Shown here one piece after another: positions 20,905 to 28,008 of a stretch of DNA of 48,272 bases; positions within the stretch are counted from its first letter, which is position 1; the number at the start of each line of letters is the position of its first letter. The translations under genes and the position numbers were made by a program. Under the pieces are notes generated by a model. The model saw only the letters and a list, made by a program, of their open reading frames with translations, was not told where the DNA came from and ran no database searches. The DNA comes from Bacilli bacterium (GTDB lineage: Bacteria; Bacillota_I; Bacilli_A; RF39; UBA660): contig JAQUWE010000011.1 of assembly GCA_028693035.1 (NCBI GenBank), positions 1-48,272 of the forward strand. Reading direction: 5' to 3'.

Positions 20905-21594
20905 ATGTATGACATTTTAATTTATTTTACACTGTTTTTAATTATTTCTTTTATAGGATGGGTTACTGAAATTGTATATACAGGAATTGATCAAAAAGTT
21001 TTCACAGATCGTGGCTTTTTACTAGGACCTTACTGCCCTATCTATGGAAGTGCTTCTCTACTTATGATGCTTTTCCTTCATAAATATGTAAACGATCCTG
21101 TTGTTTTATTTGTAATGGCAGCTAACATTTGCTCCGTTATGGAATATATTACAAGTTATATTATGGAAAAATTATTTAAAGCAAGATGGTGGGATTATTC
21201 ACAACTGCCCTTTAATGTAAATGGCAGAATTTGTTTAAGCAATTCTATTTTATTTGGGATTGGTGCTGTCTTTCTTTTAAAATATATTCAACCCTTTTTA
21301 TTAGAAAATCTATATCATTTTCCAAAAGAATATTTCTTCTATATTGCCTACCCATTGCTTATTATTTTTATTTTAGATGTAATCCTATCAGGTAATATTA
21401 TTGTGCGTTTTAAACATACTGTTGAAAATATTCAAAAAGATTATACTGGTGAAATCAGTGATAAGGTAAGAAAAGTAATTATGAATAAATCTTATCCATT
21501 TAGAAGACTATTTATGGCTTTTCCTAATCAAATTATTGTTGGATTAAAAAAGACAATTTGGGAGAAAATTTTCCCTAAGAAAAAGAAACATTAA
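20905..21594 (+). CDS. Putative ABC-transporter-like membrane protein (CmpB family)
   Basis: This 229-aa protein has about five membrane helices. Family features of the CmpB-type proteins (Pfam ABC_trans_CmpB) are clear: FIGWVTEIVYTGI, RGFLLGPYCPIYG, the helix with VMEYITSYIMEKLF, RWWDYSQLPFNVNGRICL. The polar C-terminal tail is Lys-rich. The name 'ABC transporter permease' in databases is not backed by biochemistry, and there is no ATPase next to it. It is monocistronic with its own promoter and a shared terminator. Confidence 0.85.
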   Translation: MYDILIYFTLFLIISFIGWVTEIVYTGIDQKVFTDRGFLLGPYCPIYGSASLLMMLFLHKYVNDPVVLFVMAANICSVMEYITSYIMEKLFKARWWDYSQLPFNVNGRICLSNSILFGIGAVFLLKYIQPFLLENLYHFPKEYFFYIAYPLLIIFILDVILSGNIIVRFKHTVENIQKDYTGEISDKVRKVIMNKSYPFRRLFMAFPNQIIVGLKKTIWEKIFPKKKKH

Positions 21595-21608
21595 TACATG
21601 TTTCTTTT
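21581..21608. terminator. Bidirectional terminator between convergent genes
   Basis: A perfect 11-bp stem AAAAGAAACAT/ATGTTTCTTTT (21581-21591, 21598-21608) with a 6-nt loop lies over both stop codons, with A- and T-rich flanks. Confidence 0.85.
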
Positions 21609-22845
21609 ATTTTATATACGTAAATGTTTTTAAATCATTATTAAAGTTCATTTCAGATTGGTATCCTAGTGTGCGTAGTCCTGTCTGATCACTATAATAT
21701 TTTAAATATCCTTCTTCTGAAAAGTAAATAAATCCTTTTCCAAAAGAAATGTTTTTTAATTCATTTGTTTTAAATAGAAAGACAATTTGATTTGGATAGG
21801 AAGGATTGACACGACTGACTTCTATTTTTCCATTTCTTTTTTTGGTTAAATAATAAAGGCCATCTGTACTTTTGTATATAGAATCATACTCTTTATTTTG
21901 ATATTCTAACTTATTACTAAAGCTTTTATCTTTATGAACTTCGTTCATATCTTTTTGTATCCATTCTCCATTTTCATAAAAAGGTATTGTATTTCCACGA
22001 CCTGTTTCTGTGACTACTTTTTTCTTACTATCAATTTTGTATTGTACACGGTTGCTTTTATCAAGTAAATAAACAGAATGATCTATATTTCCTTGTATAA
22101 AACTATCTAAGGAAATGGATTTTGTAGTTAATTCCTTTTTACTGTTGTTGGTTACATCAATAATATAAATTTCATTGAAATCATAAGAACGATTATAAGA
22201 AGCCGTTATAAAATATTTAGAGGCAAGAGCGGCTATTTTAGGTTCATATACATCAGAATTGTAGTAAGAAAGAGTATTGATAGGTTTTTCTTTACTTTGT
22301 TTAATATTGTAAATTCCTCTATAATTTTGAACGACTGTATAATGCCCTGCTTGTATATTATTTTTATATACAGTTAGAAAGGGTTCTTTTATTGTATCTA
22401 CTTTACTATCTATAAAATCATTTTGATTATATGCAGGTAAATTTTCTACAAAAGCATCTAGTTTTTTATCTTTACCCACAATGTTTTGATAATAAACATA
22501 ATAACTTCCTTTACAAAGAACATCTTTTTTTATTTTTTTGTTCTTAAAAACAGGATATACACATTCATACTGTTCATCTTTAAAGGAATGTATTTCTTTT
22601 ATAATTTCAGAATCTTTATTTAAAGAATCAAAGACTTTAAAAGAAAAGTTTTGATCAATCAAAAGTGTATAAGAAGCAGGTTCTATACTTGTTTTTGATC
22701 TATATTTTTCATAAATAACATGAGATTTTTTCTTTTCTTTTCTTGTATAAGTTCTTTCATATCCTTTTCCAAAAAAGACAAAAAAACCTTGTATTATTAA
22801 AGAAAAAACAAATAAAAGCAAAAGTAATTTTAAAACTTTTTTCAT
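21607..22845 (-). CDS. Membrane-anchored hypothetical protein, 412 aa
   Basis: I do not recognise a family. An N-terminal helix (about 5-27, KLLLLLFVFSLIIQGFFVFF) would anchor it or act as an uncleaved signal, with most of the chain outside the cell. The rest is beta-rich with repeated Tyr/Lys/Asp strands of about 40-45 residues, which suggests a propeller-like fold. Two Cys (in YECVYP and DVLCKG) could pair. It is the last gene of the ecfA1-ecfA2-ecfT-truA operon: its TAGGAGG site lies within 15 bases of the truA ATG side and it ends at a strong terminator. A role connected to transport or the surface is only suggested by its position. Confidence 0.7.
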   Translation of the reverse strand: MKKVLKLLLLLFVFSLIIQGFFVFFGKGYERTYTRKEKKKSHVIYEKYRSKTSIEPASYTLLIDQNFSFKVFDSLNKDSEIIKEIHSFKDEQYECVYPVFKNKKIKKDVLCKGSYYVYYQNIVGKDKKLDAFVENLPAYNQNDFIDSKVDTIKEPFLTVYKNNIQAGHYTVVQNYRGIYNIKQSKEKPINTLSYYNSDVYEPKIAALASKYFITASYNRSYDFNEIYIIDVTNNSKKELTTKSISLDSFIQGNIDHSVYLLDKSNRVQYKIDSKKKVVTETGRGNTIPFYENGEWIQKDMNEVHKDKSFSNKLEYQNKEYDSIYKSTDGLYYLTKKRNGKIEVSRVNPSYPNQIVFLFKTNELKNISFGKGFIYFSEEGYLKYYSDQTGLRTLGYQSEMNFNNDLKTFTYIK

Positions 22846-22854
22846 TTGTACCTC

Positions 22855-23598
22855 CTATCTATAAAAAACATCTTTTAAATAAAGTCCATTAGGAAGAGCT
22901 GTCTTTCCTGCATACATTCTATTTTCTTCTTTTAAAATAGGAATCATATCTTCACTTTTTCTTTTTCCCTCTCCTATTTCAATAAGAGTTCCTACTATAT
23001 TACGCACCATATAACGCATAAAACCAGTTCCTAAAAAAGAAAGTGTTAATGTATTTACATGTTTAACATCACGAATTAAATTCGCACTTACAAGGGTTCT
23101 TTCATAAGATTCTTTTTCTTCATCTATTTTTACAAAAGATCTGAAGTTATGAGTACCTTCTAAATACTTTAAAGCTCTTTCCATTTCCACAACATCTAAA
23201 GGCTTGTTGTATTGTAAAATGTAATCTTTTTCAATAGGATTGTATTCTCCTAAATTGATTTTATAAACGTATTCCTTCGCAACTACATCAAATCTAGCAT
23301 GAAAACTATCATCGACAATTTCTGCCTTTTTGATATAAATAGTATCAGGAATCATACTATTTAAAGCTTTTTGTAATTTCTCAGGTGTTATTTTAATTTG
23401 TAAATCAAAATGGGCTTTCTGATTTAAAGCATGCACACCAGCATCTGTTCTACCAGAAGCATTTAATACAACTTTGGTATTGTCATTTAGTGTTTTTAGA
23501 GCTTTTTCAAGTTCTCCTTGTACCGTCTTCATTTTAGGTTGTTTTTGATAGCCACTATATTTAGAACCATCATAAGAAAATGTAATTAAATATCTCAT
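22855..23598 (-). CDS. truA: tRNA pseudouridine synthase A
   Basis: This enzyme converts U38-U40 in the anticodon arm of tRNAs to pseudouridine. The 247-aa length is normal. The catalytic Asp lies in GRTDAGVHALNQ (about 49-60). Other family blocks are YDGSKYSGYQKQP at the start, ARFDVVAKEYVYKI, and FLGTGFMRYMVRNIVGTL near the C-terminus. It overlaps ecfT by four bases (ATGA), so they are coupled. The order ecfA1-ecfA2-ecfT-truA is the classic Firmicutes arrangement. Confidence 0.96.
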   Translation of the reverse strand: MRYLITFSYDGSKYSGYQKQPKMKTVQGELEKALKTLNDNTKVVLNASGRTDAGVHALNQKAHFDLQIKITPEKLQKALNSMIPDTIYIKKAEIVDDSFHARFDVVAKEYVYKINLGEYNPIEKDYILQYNKPLDVVEMERALKYLEGTHNFRSFVKIDEEKESYERTLVSANLIRDVKHVNTLTLSFLGTGFMRYMVRNIVGTLIEIGEGKRKSEDMIPILKEENRMYAGKTALPNGLYLKDVFYR

Positions 23599-24341
23599 AA
23601 AAATACCTCACTTACTGTTAATACTATCATTATACCATGAATTATTATAAATACGATATCTAAAATATGCCAGGTATTCATTTGATAATTGGTTCTTACT
23701 TTACCAATTTCAAAATTTCTTAATTTCATAGATTCTTCTACACGGTGACATTCTTTTCTAGATAAAGAAAATAAAGGTCCTATAATCGATTTGAATACAA
23801 ATAATTTACCTTTTCTACTAGAGTGATTGTAATCAATTCCAAGAGAAGAAACGGTATATAAAAGCTCTTTCTTTTTATTGATAAAAGAAGGAATGAACTG
23901 AGAATATAAAGCTAATTTAATAGCTATTTTAGAAGGAGATAAATGTATTTTAGATAAAGGAAACAAGAAGATTTCATAGGTATATGTCATTTCTGTAATA
24001 GGAGTTGTTAAAGTAAATACAAAAACAGATAAACAAAGTATAACAATCCTTACTAGATAAAGACAAATAAGTATGAAAGGAACTTGCATGAAAAGGAAAA
24101 CAAGAACCAATAAAAGAAAGAGAAGACGAAGTACATAAAGCATTTTAAAATAAGTAGACAAGGAAATCTTAGAAAATAACATACTCCATAAAACGAACAA
24201 AAATAGAAAAGCTAGAAGGTACCATGTAGAAAACAAAGTACAAAAAGTAAAAAGAAGTAAACAAATAAATTTACAAATAGGATTCATTTTGTGTATAGGA
24301 GGCGCTCCAGTACGCTCTTTTTTATTTATATTATTTAACAT
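23595..24341 (-). CDS. ecfT: ECF transporter transmembrane subunit T, divergent
   Basis: This is the T component that couples the two ATPases to vitamin-binding S subunits in the membrane. About five to six hydrophobic helices lie in the N-terminal two thirds (ICLLLFTFCTLF, LFLLLVLVFLFMQ, and so on), followed by the cytoplasmic coupling helices. Typical EcfT proteins carry two Ala-Arg-Gly motifs there; here the equivalent places read TVSSLGID and SMKLRNFE, so only one Arg is kept. I prefer the ATG at 24341 because the AAAGGA site is too close to the ATG at 24353. It overlaps ecfA2 and is coupled to truA. Confidence 0.8.
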   Translation of the reverse strand: MLNNINKKERTGAPPIHKMNPICKFICLLLFTFCTLFSTWYLLAFLFLFVLWSMLFSKISLSTYFKMLYVLRLLFLLLVLVFLFMQVPFILICLYLVRIVILCLSVFVFTLTTPITEMTYTYEIFLFPLSKIHLSPSKIAIKLALYSQFIPSFINKKKELLYTVSSLGIDYNHSSRKGKLFVFKSIIGPLFSLSRKECHRVEESMKLRNFEIGKVRTNYQMNTWHILDIVFIIIHGIMIVLTVSEVFL

Positions 24342-25161
24342 ATCTATATACATCCTTTATTAAATCATTGATATCATTGCGGTATCCTATTTTGATGCCT
24401 TTATTTTCTAGTACCATATTAGAAAATCTAATAAAATCAGGAATTTTTACACCATACTTATAAAGTGTTTTTTCTTCTTTTAATACTTTATATTTGGTAC
24501 CCTCTAACTGTATTTTTTTATCCCCTAAAAGATAGATATAATCGGCTAATTCTAAAGCACTATCCGTATCTTTTGTTGTAATTACAATTGTCTTTTGGTA
24601 TTCTCTTTTCAGTTGTTTAAAAAGTTTAATAAAATCTTTCTTTGCTTTAGAACAAAGACCTAGAAAGGGTTCATCGATTAAAAATATTTCTGGATTTTTA
24701 AGTAACGCAATCGCAAGCGCTACTCTTTTTTGTTCTGTAAAACTAAGAGATAAAGGAGATTGTTTTTTTATGGAACTATCCAATTCTACCATCTCTAAAA
24801 CACGTTCTATTTTTTCTTCTTTTTCCTCTTTGATTCCAGAAGAAGCAAGGGCAAATAAAAGTTCTTTATAGACAGTTTTACAAAAGAAATGAGCGGAAGG
24901 ATCAGAGAAAACATAACCAATGTGTGTTCTTAACGTATTAAATAAGCGATTACTCCTTTTTTGAATGACGAAACTATCAATAATAATTTCTCCTTTTGTA
25001 GGAAGTTTTAAAGCATCAATCAGATTTAAAAGAATTGTTTTTCCAGAGCCACTTTTTCCTATACAAACTGTAATTTTATTTGCTTTACAAGTCATGTTAA
25101 TATTTTCTAAAATGGTGTTTTTAGATTCTTTATATGTTACATCTTTTATTTTTATTTCCAT
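24331..25161 (-). CDS. ecfA2: ECF transporter ATPase, A2-like, with degenerate motifs
   Basis: This 276-aa ABC ATPase has an intact Walker A GKSGSGKT (35-42) and Walker B with catalytic Glu, EIFLIDEP (158-165). Other motifs are altered: the Q-loop Gln is S86 (VFSDPS), the LSGGQ signature reads LSFTEQ (139-144), the D-loop Asp is C170, and the H-loop His is K197 (TTKDTD). It still has the family's overall length and position between ecfA1 and ecfT. It should pair with the A1 partner on the cytoplasmic face of EcfT. ATP binding looks possible; hydrolysis may be slow or lost. Confidence 0.85.
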   Translation of the reverse strand: MEIKIKDVTYKESKNTILENINMTCKANKITVCIGKSGSGKTILLNLIDALKLPTKGEIIIDSFVIQKRSNRLFNTLRTHIGYVFSDPSAHFFCKTVYKELLFALASSGIKEEKEEKIERVLEMVELDSSIKKQSPLSLSFTEQKRVALAIALLKNPEIFLIDEPFLGLCSKAKKDFIKLFKQLKREYQKTIVITTKDTDSALELADYIYLLGDKKIQLEGTKYKVLKEEKTLYKYGVKIPDFIRFSNMVLENKGIKIGYRNDINDLIKDVYRYVK

Positions 25162-25958
25162 AAAGCATCCACCATCTCTTTCATATCAAAAATAGGTTTT
25201 TCTAACAATTCATAATAGGAAAGACGGTGCGATAAATCTGCTAAAAAAGGAAGAGATAAACCAATTTCTGTAAGTTTTTTTTCTTCTTGCAAGAAGAGAG
25301 ATAAAGACCCTTTTAATAAAATATGGGTATCATGTAAAACCATAATACTGGTACCATATAAGGCATCTTCTACATTGTTTGTAAAATGTATAATTGCCAT
25401 TTTCTTTTCTTTATTCAGTTTTTGTAAAGCTGTAAAGGCAGTACTTTTATCGATATCATCCATGTAAACAAAGGCATCATCTAAGACAAGAACCTTTGGA
25501 TTATGGATAACAGCAGAGGCTACTCGAAGTAATGATTTTTTACTATCATTTAGTTCATTTGGACTTAAATGGTAATATTTTTGTAAATTAAACAAGGTCC
25601 CAATCTCTTCTACTCTATTAGAAATGTCCTGCTTTGCCATGCCTAGATTTTCTAGTATATAAATAAGGTCATTCAGAACGGTTTCACCTGCAAAATAGGA
25701 ATAAGTTGGATTCATCACAAATCCCATGATTTTTCTTAACTGGTGTATCTGCGATTTATCTAAAACAGTGCGATTGATGTTTATGTAGCCTTTATGGGGC
25801 AAAAGTCCTGCTAAAATAAGAGCAAATGTTGTTTTTCCAGAACCACCTATTCCTAAAATAGTTGTAAAAGACCCTTCTTCTAAATCAAAATTAATAGAAT
25901 TTAGGATTTTTTTATTTTTATAAGAAAAGGAAAGTTCTCTAACAATGACTTCATTCAT
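25152..25958 (-). CDS. ecfA1: ECF transporter ATPase, A1-like, strongly degenerate
   Basis: This is the first gene of the ecf-truA operon. Walker A is intact, GIGGSGKT (36-43). The Q-loop (normally VFQNP) reads VMNP and lacks the Gln, the signature LSGGQ reads LNDSK (136-140), the catalytic Glu after Walker B is D161 (VLVLDDAF), and the H-loop His is N194 (HFTNNVED). The start is taken as ATG 25958, with GGTGAT upstream; an in-frame ATG at 25970 has no ribosome binding site. It overlaps ecfA2 by ten bases. Together with the A2 changes, this module departs from normal ECF energisers. Confidence 0.82.
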   Translation of the reverse strand: MNEVIVRELSFSYKNKKILNSINFDLEEGSFTTILGIGGSGKTTFALILAGLLPHKGYININRTVLDKSQIHQLRKIMGFVMNPTYSYFAGETVLNDLIYILENLGMAKQDISNRVEEIGTLFNLQKYYHLSPNELNDSKKSLLRVASAVIHNPKVLVLDDAFVYMDDIDKSTAFTALQKLNKEKKMAIIHFTNNVEDALYGTSIMVLHDTHILLKGSLSLFLQEEKKLTEIGLSLPFLADLSHRLSYYELLEKPIFDMKEMVDALWK

Positions 25959-25978
25959 ATACATCACCATAGTAATTT

Positions 25979-26017: not shown

Positions 26018-26152
26018 TTAATTTAGGCGATTTGTATAGATTCTTTAGCAAATATTCTAACTTTATAAAAAAAGAACCAAGATTATTTTCTTGATTCATT
26101 ATTTTTAACTTGTATTTGAATACTTTGATATATTTTTTGTTTTAATTTTTTA
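26018..26152. repeat. Direct repeat copy 1 (about 135 bp), 3' end of the pentapeptide-like gene
   Basis: This stretch is about 85-90% alike by eye to 27016-27152, same orientation, 999 bases apart. It contains the last ~23 codons of the pentapeptide-like gene, its terminator and a downstream block starting TTAATTTAGGCGATTTGTAT. Confidence 0.85.
26066..26096 (-). terminator. Terminator of the pentapeptide-like gene
   Basis: On the minus strand the stem AATCAAGA/TCTTGGTT (one G-T pair) with a 6-nt loop is followed by CTTTTTTT. The stem begins inside the last codons. Confidence 0.8.
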
Positions 26153-26934
26153 TACGATTTTTCCACTTCTTCTTTTGAAATAATTGTGTAATTTCTTAGC
26201 TTCCCAGTTTCTAAACATTCATTATACTGCTCTATAGATCTCTGATTATCTATCCTTCTATCCATTTCCAAGAAGGTTGGTATAACTCTAATCCCAGTAT
26301 CAGAAAAATCACAGTCTAGTGCAGATCTATTGTAACAAGGATTTGTATTTTTAAAATCTTCTACAAAAAAGGATAAATCTACAAAAAAGTCAGAAAGATC
26401 GTTTCCTACAAATTTTGAATCAAACAATGTTTGTGGAACAGCTTTATTTTGTTCAAAGTGTAAATTACAATAGGAAAAATCTGATTCACTTACGTGATCA
26501 ATCATATCAAAATGAGAATTTGATAGATTCATATGCGAAAAGTCGCAACTACTTACTTGAATACCCTCTTTACTTCTGAAAGCATTTGCAAAATTTATAT
26601 AAGCGTTTGTACCACTTAAATTAATATTTTCAACATGATGTTCCCCATAATGATTATCTTCTGATAACAATTCATAATAAACATTCCAATTCACATGGTC
26701 AAAAGAGATTTCACTTAAATCTAGTTTTCTTAAAAAAGGGCCTGACCACATAACATATTTGACTGGGGTCATTTCATAAGAACAATCATTGTTCTTACTT
26801 TTATACTCTGTATGAAAAAGTAAAGTTTCAATTATTTTATTATCTAAATAAATTTGTTGATTATCTGGAACCTCCTCTAACATTTCTTCTACATCTTTTC
26901 TCAATTGCTTTGTTTTTCCTTTACCTAACTTCAT
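26083..26934 (-). CDS. Pentapeptide-repeat-like protein, 283 aa
   Basis: The middle of the protein (about 75-205) has degenerate pentapeptide repeats of the A(D/N)LxX type: LDLSEISFDHVNW, NINLSGTNAYINFANAF, SSCDFSHMNLSNSHFDM, SDFSYCNLHF, SKFVGNDLSDFF. These would fold as a right-handed quadrilateral beta helix, a scaffold known from DNA-mimic and unassigned proteins. The N-terminal 40 residues are acidic/basic and helical, and the C-terminal 50 are Lys-rich and helical. The function is unknown. An AAGGAG site precedes the ATG. It is flanked by 135-bp direct repeats that include its own 3' end, a sign of past tandem duplication. Confidence 0.75.
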   Translation of the reverse strand: MKLGKGKTKQLRKDVEEMLEEVPDNQQIYLDNKIIETLLFHTEYKSKNNDCSYEMTPVKYVMWSGPFLRKLDLSEISFDHVNWNVYYELLSEDNHYGEHHVENINLSGTNAYINFANAFRSKEGIQVSSCDFSHMNLSNSHFDMIDHVSESDFSYCNLHFEQNKAVPQTLFDSKFVGNDLSDFFVDLSFFVEDFKNTNPCYNRSALDCDFSDTGIRVIPTFLEMDRRIDNQRSIEQYNECLETGKLRNYTIISKEEVEKSYKKLKQKIYQSIQIQVKNNESRK

Positions 26935-27179: not shown

Positions 27180-27932
27180 TTATTCTGTTTTCTTTTTCTG
27201 AAACTTATAAGCAATACGCATTAATAATTTAGTAGGAAGTAAATGCTCTACCCAAAAAGTAAGCTTCATTGTTGTACCTGGAATAATCACAAGTTTTCTT
27301 TGAAACATTTTTTTAACAGCATATATAGCAACTTCCTTACTTGTAAGTGGTTTGGCACTAAAACGAACTCCCGCAACTGTATTAAAATTGGTATCAACAG
27401 GTCCTGGGCAAAGGCATCCAACGTAGACATTACTCTTATCTACCCTTAATTCTTCATATAAAGCCTCTGTAAGGCGCAAAACATAAGATTTGGTTGCGTA
27501 GTAGGTTGCCATTAAAGGACCTGGTAAAAAGGCTGCAGATGAGGCTACATTCAGGATATATCCTTTGTCCTTTTCTTTAAAGTCTTTATAAAAGAGTTTA
27601 GTTAGAATATGTACGGCTTTTATATTGACATCAATCATATCTAATTCTTTATCAATATTGGTATCCTCGAATTTTCCCCATACACCAAAACCAGCATTAT
27701 TAATAACAACATCAATATCTTCACTCTTTATTTTATTATATAATTTTATACAATTATAAGAAGAAGATAAATCCATCACATGTACTTCTACTTTTGTTTT
27801 GATTTCTTTTCTTAATTTTTCCAATGCTTTTTTATTACGTGCTACTAAAATAACATCATATCCTTGTTCACTTAAAGTAAGTGCGATGTCTCTTCCTATA
27901 CCACTACTAGCGCCTGTTATCAATGCTTTCAT
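27180..27932 (-). CDS. Short-chain dehydrogenase/reductase (classical SDR)
   Basis: This NAD(P)-dependent oxidoreductase has a Rossmann fold with the cofactor motif TGASSGIG (about 6-13), the NNAG motif (about 82-85), a catalytic Ser in LNVASSAAF and the YxxxK pair in TYYATKSYVL, then the PGPVDT loop. Substrate specificity cannot be read. I take ATG 27932 (MKALITG) because AGGTGA lies six bases upstream; ATG 27950 has no ribosome binding site. The length of 250 aa is typical. The C-terminal end FWVEHLLPTKLLMRIAYKFQ is basic and amphipathic, as in membrane-associated SDRs of the YqjQ/DltE type. Confidence 0.9.
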   Translation of the reverse strand: MKALITGASSGIGRDIALTLSEQGYDVILVARNKKALEKLRKEIKTKVEVHVMDLSSSYNCIKLYNKIKSEDIDVVINNAGFGVWGKFEDTNIDKELDMIDVNIKAVHILTKLFYKDFKEKDKGYILNVASSAAFLPGPLMATYYATKSYVLRLTEALYEELRVDKSNVYVGCLCPGPVDTNFNTVAGVRFSAKPLTSKEVAIYAVKKMFQRKLVIIPGTTMKLTFWVEHLLPTKLLMRIAYKFQKKKTE

Positions 27933-28008
27933 ACTATCACCTATTTTCATTATAACATGAAATAAGAAAAGTTCTAATTTAAAAAGAATTATTAAGTGTC
28001 ATAGAATG

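Follow-up and report, generated by a model that had tools for sequence, protein, structure and literature searches.

The DNA analyzed here, referred to as the window, is a 48,272-nt stretch (positions 1 to 48,272 of contig JAQUWE010000011.1) from a Bacilli bacterium, which carries homologues of the energy-coupling factor (ECF) transporter genes ecfA1, ecfA2 and ecfT upstream of truA. We propose that this module is a dead flavin adenine dinucleotide (FAD) exporter whose two ATPases, EcfA1 (A1) and EcfA2 (A2), have been retained as a non-hydrolyzing, mostly ATP-liganded heterodimer, a reading to which we assign a probability of roughly 0.62. Our findings suggest that, in a family of bacteria with small genomes, the two ATPases of a vitamin or flavin pump have lost both the pump and ATP hydrolysis and were kept as a pair for a different job, with selection now strongest on their C-terminal domains. 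The window's genome, a 1.36-Mb metagenome-assembled genome (MAG) of 36 contigs that is 93% complete with 6% contamination, appears to have been caught in mid-transition, with EcfT present but drifting and the second ATP site half intact on the A2 side.

The genes occupy the classic position between rplQ and truA, in minus-strand frames that are all intact, and the first three overlap one another:

25152-25970, minus strand: EcfA1 homologue, degenerate ECF ATPase, 272 aa; an in-frame alternative start Met lies at 25958, where the initial annotation had begun the gene
24331-25161, minus strand: EcfA2 homologue, degenerate ECF ATPase, 276 aa, with a 10-nt overlap with A1
23595-24353, minus strand: EcfT homologue, 252 aa, the sole EcfT in the genome
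22855-23598, minus strand: truA, above the TIGR00071 cut-off, a conserved downstream neighbor used as the evolutionary yardstick for the rates of A1, A2 and EcfT

Motif loss in both ATPases of the window

NCBIfam calls both proteins ECF ATPases at about half the curated cut-off, as A1 scored 164.8 bits against TIGR04520, far below the 315 bits required, and A2 scored 192.8 bits against TIGR04521 (cut-off 330 bits). The closest solved chains were EcfA 4huq_B for A1 (E 2.6e-26) and EcfA2 4mki_B for A2 (E 1.6e-33), and the AlphaFold2 model of A1, with a predicted local distance difference test (pLDDT) score of 92.9, had EcfA and CbiO chains as its top PDB matches (template modeling score 0.82-0.87). 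ATP-binding cassette (ABC) dimers have two composite sites, each built from the Walker A and B motifs and the Q- and H-loops of one subunit and the signature of the other (PMC7756269). Here, site 1 is the A1 Walker A and Walker B Asp facing the A2 signature L-S-x-x-E and D-loop Asp. Motif residues were placed by gapless alignment to relatives, outgroups and solved EcfA chains:

25830-25853, minus strand: A1 Walker A, GIGGSGKT, kept; nucleotide-binding half of composite site 1
25704-25721, minus strand: A1 Q-loop region, FVMNPT, without Gln (Asn in the gapless alignment)
25539-25553, minus strand: A1 signature position, LNDSK in place of LSGGQ; site 2 half lost
25473-25490, minus strand: A1 Walker B, LVLDDA, with the Mg-ligand Asp kept and the catalytic Glu replaced by Asp (D161 in the numbering of the initial annotation)
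25374-25388, minus strand: A1 H-loop position, HFTNN, His replaced by Asn
25155-25292, minus strand: A1 C-terminal tail domain, the best conserved part of A1 family-wide
25036-25059, minus strand: A2 Walker A, GKSGSGKT, kept here and lost in most relatives without EcfT
24730-24747, minus strand: A2 signature, LSFTEQ; L, S and E are kept family-wide
24652-24663, minus strand: A2 D-loop, LGLC, Asp replaced by Cys
24334-24480, minus strand: A2 C-terminal tail, detected in 240 of the 291 genomes of the family

The initial annotation had reported a coordinated loss of catalytic motifs within intact frames and an intact operon, and this was borne out: every residue listed for A1 (Walker A kept; Gln, LSGGQ, Glu and His lost) was confirmed, as were those listed for A2, which keeps Walker A and the catalytic Glu164, has Ser86 in place of the Q-loop Gln, reads LSFTEQ at the signature and has Lys197 at the H-loop His; the D-loop Cys is an additional change. 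The losses are not alignment slips, which had been named as a possible refutation, because the same drift was seen at the same columns in 122 family loci while the class outgroups were canonical. Complete ABC motifs with the catalytic Glu and H-loop His in both ATPases were not found, and no canonical hydrolyzing ATP site is left in the pair. Site 1 is whole on its A1 side apart from a G at the N of GxNGxGKT, and on its A2 side it keeps L-S-x-x-E with a Cys at the D-loop Asp. An artefact of assembly, contamination or alignment could be suspected in a 36-contig MAG with 6% contamination, but locus, gene order and drift are alike in independent MAGs of more than 100 genera and the A1 model has the EcfA fold (pLDDT 92.9), so we regard such an artefact as close to impossible.

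The FAD-export context and EcfT in the window's genome

No substrate subunit (S component) was found in the window's genome using PF12822, PF07155, PF07456 and PF02632, with ThiT, QueT, ThiW and others not searched and the MAG 93% complete. The PF12822 search itself works, because the class-level outgroups, few excepted, gave 1-7 matches each. Within the window's GTDB-type family (f1; 291 genomes, 150 genera), the few PF12822 matches were EetB-type proteins (PF07456), and EetB was the only S-type subunit detected, in 57 of 291 genomes, two of those matches being weak or partial. In Listeria, EetB has been shown to bind FAD, to resemble ECF-S subunits and to export FAD together with FmnA and EcfA/EcfA' (PMC9973259). 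As EetB is the sole S-type subunit detected in the family, its ECF transporter was most likely an FAD exporter feeding the flavin transferase ApbE. Three relatives (L155, L156 and L157) carry a compact flavinylation island with EetB, a NusG-II-like gene, ApbE and, in two of them, a flavin mononucleotide (FMN)-binding lipoprotein-like gene.

An f1-specific EetB profile, which recovered two positive controls at 1e-69 and 1e-77, gave no match in the window's genome or in 47 other EetB-negative genomes at E up to 0.1. The client of the exporter has changed as well:

L362:4000-4977 (contig C9 of the window's genome), minus strand: ApbE homologue, LDLGGIAKGY and HIIDPxT motifs lost

The same kind of divergent ApbE is found in three other genomes (G001, G004 and G007). 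Judging by its motifs, the window's ApbE seems degenerate and would not serve as a functional client for FAD export. A divergent EetB beside this ApbE was considered and rejected, as the neighbors are lspA, rluD, a helicase-like gene and a glycosyltransferase. No second canonical ecfA1A2T set, a check proposed in the initial annotation, was present in the genome: other ECF-ATPase-like matches were other ABC proteins, a search of the contigs with A1 returned only distant ABC matches, and there was a single CbiQ/EcfT match of the PF02361 type.

That single match is the window's EcfT, which is recognized weakly by Pfam (PF02361, E 1.4e-7) and has lost one of the two arginines of its X-Arg-X coupling motifs:

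23832-23849, minus strand: EcfT first coupling motif, SSLGID (X-Arg-X = SLG), Arg lost
23709-23726, minus strand: EcfT second coupling motif, KLRNFE (X-Arg-X = LRN), Arg kept

The initial annotation had described one motif as lost and the other as altered. The loss of the first Arg stands, but LRN is a smaller departure than it appears because the second motif is mostly V-R-L even in EetB-positive relatives. Within the window's genus (G000/G004), the ratio of nonsynonymous to synonymous substitution rates (dN/dS) was 0.80 for EcfT (bootstrap 0.52-1.12), 0.40 for A1 (0.25-0.60), 0.58 for A2 (0.37-0.80) and 0.21 for truA, values that are rough as synonymous sites are close to saturation. Of the claim that selection persists on all three partners, these ratios and intervals bear out the part on the two ATPases; they do not show it for EcfT, whose interval spans 1 and which, by this measure, appears to be evolving close to neutrally. 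Together, these results suggest that the window's lineage has lost FAD export, that EcfT is on its way out and that the pair is at or near a non-hydrolyzing state.

The module could instead still be a transporter, a slow or regulated ECF energizer with an S component so divergent that profiles miss it. The window's EcfT is an intact 252-aa frame, A2 keeps Walker A and the catalytic Glu, and both X-Arg-X arginines remain in many EcfT-positive, EetB-negative relatives, all of which speaks for a working transporter. We nevertheless find this quite unlikely: neither the four Pfam families nor the EetB profile revealed an S component (within the search and completeness limits given above), ApbE, the client of FAD export, lacks LDLGGIAKGY and HIIDP-type motifs, and both H-loops, one catalytic Glu and the first coupling Arg of EcfT are gone. 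The slow or regulated energizer offered in the initial annotation also sits poorly with the relatives, which repeatedly lose EcfT and keep A1 and A2.

Loss of EetB and EcfT across the family

We fetched 122 family loci and classified them by EetB and EcfT state, counting G224, which has a weak EetB match (E 2.5e-4), as EetB-negative. Throughout f1, ecfA1-ecfA2-(ecfT)-truA lies at one common place. EcfT was present in all 49 EetB-positive loci, whereas among the 73 EetB-negative loci it was found in 26, including the window, and was undetectable in 47 (T-less loci), an association with a Fisher p of 3e-15, phylogeny not being corrected for. Without EetB, the ATPase motifs erode. EcfA1 was nonetheless present in 47/47 T-less loci (an apparently missing A1 in G156 proved to be a masked stretch of N), and the 10-nt A1/A2 overlap was kept in 112 of the A1/A2 pairs.

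The loss of EcfT appears to have happened many times, because its state on the TruA tree cannot be explained with fewer than 17 changes, of which strongly supported branches alone demand 7, and because losses occur within single genera, including the window's own, in which G005 has no EcfT. In 41 of the 47 T-less loci there is no space for EcfT, or only a short gap, between A2 and truA. The other six (L320, L352, L114, L331, L308 and L300) have a hydrophobic frame of 189-217 aa at this place that is barely matched by the EcfT profile; these frames are probably eroded EcfT, perhaps retained in stripped form as small membrane proteins. The search for EcfT elsewhere in T-less genomes used a single-sequence query, which missed at least one divergent EcfT (G010).

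Ordered loss of ATP-site residues and conservation of the C-terminal domains

T-less loci (n = 47) retained on average 32% of the outgroup-invariant sites in A1 (75 positions) and 29% in A2, and the losses were very uneven. In A1, the Walker A Lys and the Walker B Asp were each kept in 94% (91-94% when two Walker A Gly are included), and in A2 the signature Ser was kept in 98%, Leu in 91%, Glu/Gln in 91% and the D-loop Asp in 87%. The catalytic residues of site 1 were kept in 6% (A1 Glu), 2% (His) and 15% (Gln/Glu), and at site 2 the P-loop, Walker B Asp, partner signature and D-loop were lost (21-70% kept). Changes counted on the TruA tree followed the same pattern, with 3-8 for each binding residue of site 1, 22-23 for the A1 Glu and His and 16-24 for site 2 residues; residues other than the site 1 binding ones mostly changed 16-26 times. 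As read from these alignments, motif loss is ordered, with site 1 mostly kept for binding without catalysis and site 2 dismantled, and ATP binding at site 1 in T-less relatives is likely.

The C-terminal tails have gone from the most variable part of the proteins in the outgroups to the best conserved part in f1. Mean pairwise identity in the class outgroups was 0.63 in the core and 0.34 in the tail for A1, and 0.62 and 0.23 for A2. The order is reversed in EetB-positive f1 loci, where tail and core reached 0.53 and 0.45 in A1 and 0.54 and 0.51 in A2, and in T-less loci, with 0.48 and 0.26 in A1 and 0.46 and 0.30 in A2. The constraint acts on the protein because four-fold degenerate sites are as variable in the tail as in the core, which also led us to reject a nucleotide signal, such as a ribosome-binding site or the gene overlap, as the cause of tail conservation. 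Among solved proteins, the A1 tail matched only EcfA1, distantly, at the C-terminal domain of 5jsz_A (E 0.005), and the A2 tail had no homologue. Genus g8 has lost the ATP site altogether: both P-loops are deleted, and the remaining proteins, of 149 and 181-183 aa, are not matched to the ABC family by Pfam any more. The g8 A1 model has a confident C-terminal domain (blocks 90-96) that matches the C-terminal part of CbiO and EcfA, and the dN/dS of the pair was 0.07 and 0.09, next to 0.06 for truA. We consider this constraint the strongest single argument that the pair may be used without being an ATPase.

These patterns also bear on plain decay, in which the transporter died with EetB and the ATPases erode, their frames being kept since breaks would disturb the coupled translation of truA. 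A1 and A2 do evolve faster after EetB loss, EcfT is lost repeatedly with a dN/dS in the window's genus indistinguishable from 1, lengths shrink in T-less loci (A2 is below 240 aa in 13 of 47), and there are tight overlaps with the adjoining genes, as decay would predict. However, the gene recognized by the A2-tail profile is retained in 131 of 150 genera, each of the nine bootstrapped pairs gave a dN/dS below 1 for both A1 and A2, and loss spares one binding site and the C-terminal domains. The tails are conserved at the protein level, the g8 mini-pair is under truA-like constraint, and polarity on truA cannot account for the conserved lysines and tails. We regard decay as rather unlikely.

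A proposed role for the retained pair

We propose that the C-terminal domains would hold A1 and A2 together, helped in most genera by a single bound, unhydrolyzed ATP, around which the pair may close and which would serve as glue or as a slow sensor. The C-terminal domains could provide a docking surface for a partner; with no membrane component left to drive, the dimer would serve as a scaffold or as an adaptor that senses nucleotide. Of the options in the initial annotation, a module with a new job is the one supported. Stated more broadly, A1-A2 would be a soluble non-hydrolyzing pseudo-ATPase heterodimer, freed of its transporter many times independently, whose working part would be the paired C-terminal domains acting on a partner, with ATP as a structural or sensory ligand that at least one genus does without, a description for which we see the odds as even.

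Several observations weigh against a retained, ATP-liganded pair. Nucleotide binding is not certain because two further glycines of site 1 are mostly lost in T-less loci, A1 Walker A G47 being kept in 15% and A2 signature G149 in 17%, and the A2 D-loop Asp is already Cys in the window. The A2 tail was missing from 51 of the 291 genomes, so the pair may be dispensable somewhere or may have been missed in incomplete assemblies. T-less loci were chosen via strong A2-tail matches, so that more decayed cases may have been missed and A2 tail conservation is inflated, that of A1 only indirectly. In many genera, the loss of EetB is followed by rates in A1 and A2 that are several-fold above that of truA, as relaxed selection predicts.

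Research on ECF modules treats them as vitamin pumps and antibiotic targets, and their genes are annotated accordingly wherever they occur; here is a family of at least 150 genera in which ecfA1 and ecfA2 beside truA come mostly with no sign of a transporter. Should the pair have a second job, an older and hidden function of the EcfA C-terminal domains may lie behind it, one that ordinary bacteria have too, and the series from a complete FAD exporter to a stripped mini-pair offers a natural experiment in which to look for it.

Neighboring genes

Between rplQ and A1 lie an oxidoreductase gene and a pentapeptide-free protein, and two membrane-associated proteins are encoded beyond truA:

27180-27950, minus strand: short-chain dehydrogenase/reductase (SDR) oxidoreductase gene, between rplQ and ecfA1
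26083-26934, minus strand: 283-aa protein, between the SDR gene and A1
21607-22845, minus strand: 412-aa protein with an N-terminal membrane anchor, directly downstream of truA
20905-21594, plus strand: PF06541 (ABC_trans_CmpB) membrane protein, facing the operon

Much of the family keeps the SDR gene in this position, where the class outgroups lack it. The 283-aa protein had no Pfam or NCBIfam match, and most relatives showed no counterpart in this position. The 412-aa protein also had no Pfam or NCBIfam match, and its homologues were seen only in the window's genus (34% identity in G004, partial in G005). We rejected it as a new partner of the module, a tie raised in the initial annotation, since it is restricted to that genus, including G005, which has no EcfT, whereas the drift of the ATPases is family-wide. 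The PF06541 protein has homologues in G004, close to the locus, and in G023, close to rplQ.

Comparison with known systems

In the collection of papers searched, we found nothing on degenerate or T-less ECF ATPases. Among the closest known systems is the group II ECF module EcfA1-EcfA2-EcfT, represented by Lactobacillus delbrueckii ECF-FolT2 (PDB 5jsz, 8bms), which shares with the window the truA gene order, the EcfA fold, the C-terminal domain and the region of the EcfT coupling motifs. The window has EcfA-fold homologues in an ecfA1-ecfA2-ecfT operon, with scores well under the equivalog cut-offs. In contrast to the group II module, however, it has no detected S component, catalytic residues are lost in both ATPases along with one EcfT Arg, and its relatives can lose EcfT itself. 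In 8bms, both Glu were artificially mutated to trap ATP (PMC10368641), whereas Glu loss is natural in the window's family.

The Listeria EetB-type FAD exporter (EetB, FmnA, EcfA and EcfA'; PMC9973259) resembles several EetB-positive relatives, which have EetB by ApbE, FMN-lipoprotein-like and NusG-II-like genes, and EcfT is found in all EetB-positive family loci. The window's genome differs in having no EetB and a degenerate ApbE. ABC exporters with one degenerate site, such as TM287/288, TAP and MRP1, are likewise asymmetric heterodimers in which the site with the changed catalytic Glu (Asp or Asn instead) retains its Walker A, and ATP has been proposed to act there as permanent glue (PMC7756269). 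Those exporters keep one canonical hydrolyzing site and their membrane domains, whereas the window's pair has no canonical site and the derived state of the family is without the membrane subunit. Among proteins with the ABC ATPase fold but no transporter, the pair can be set beside ABC-F, SufC and UvrA. These are soluble ABC proteins without membrane domains that hydrolyze ATP and form separate families, whereas the pair described here derives from EcfA1 and EcfA2 and has lost the residues for hydrolysis.

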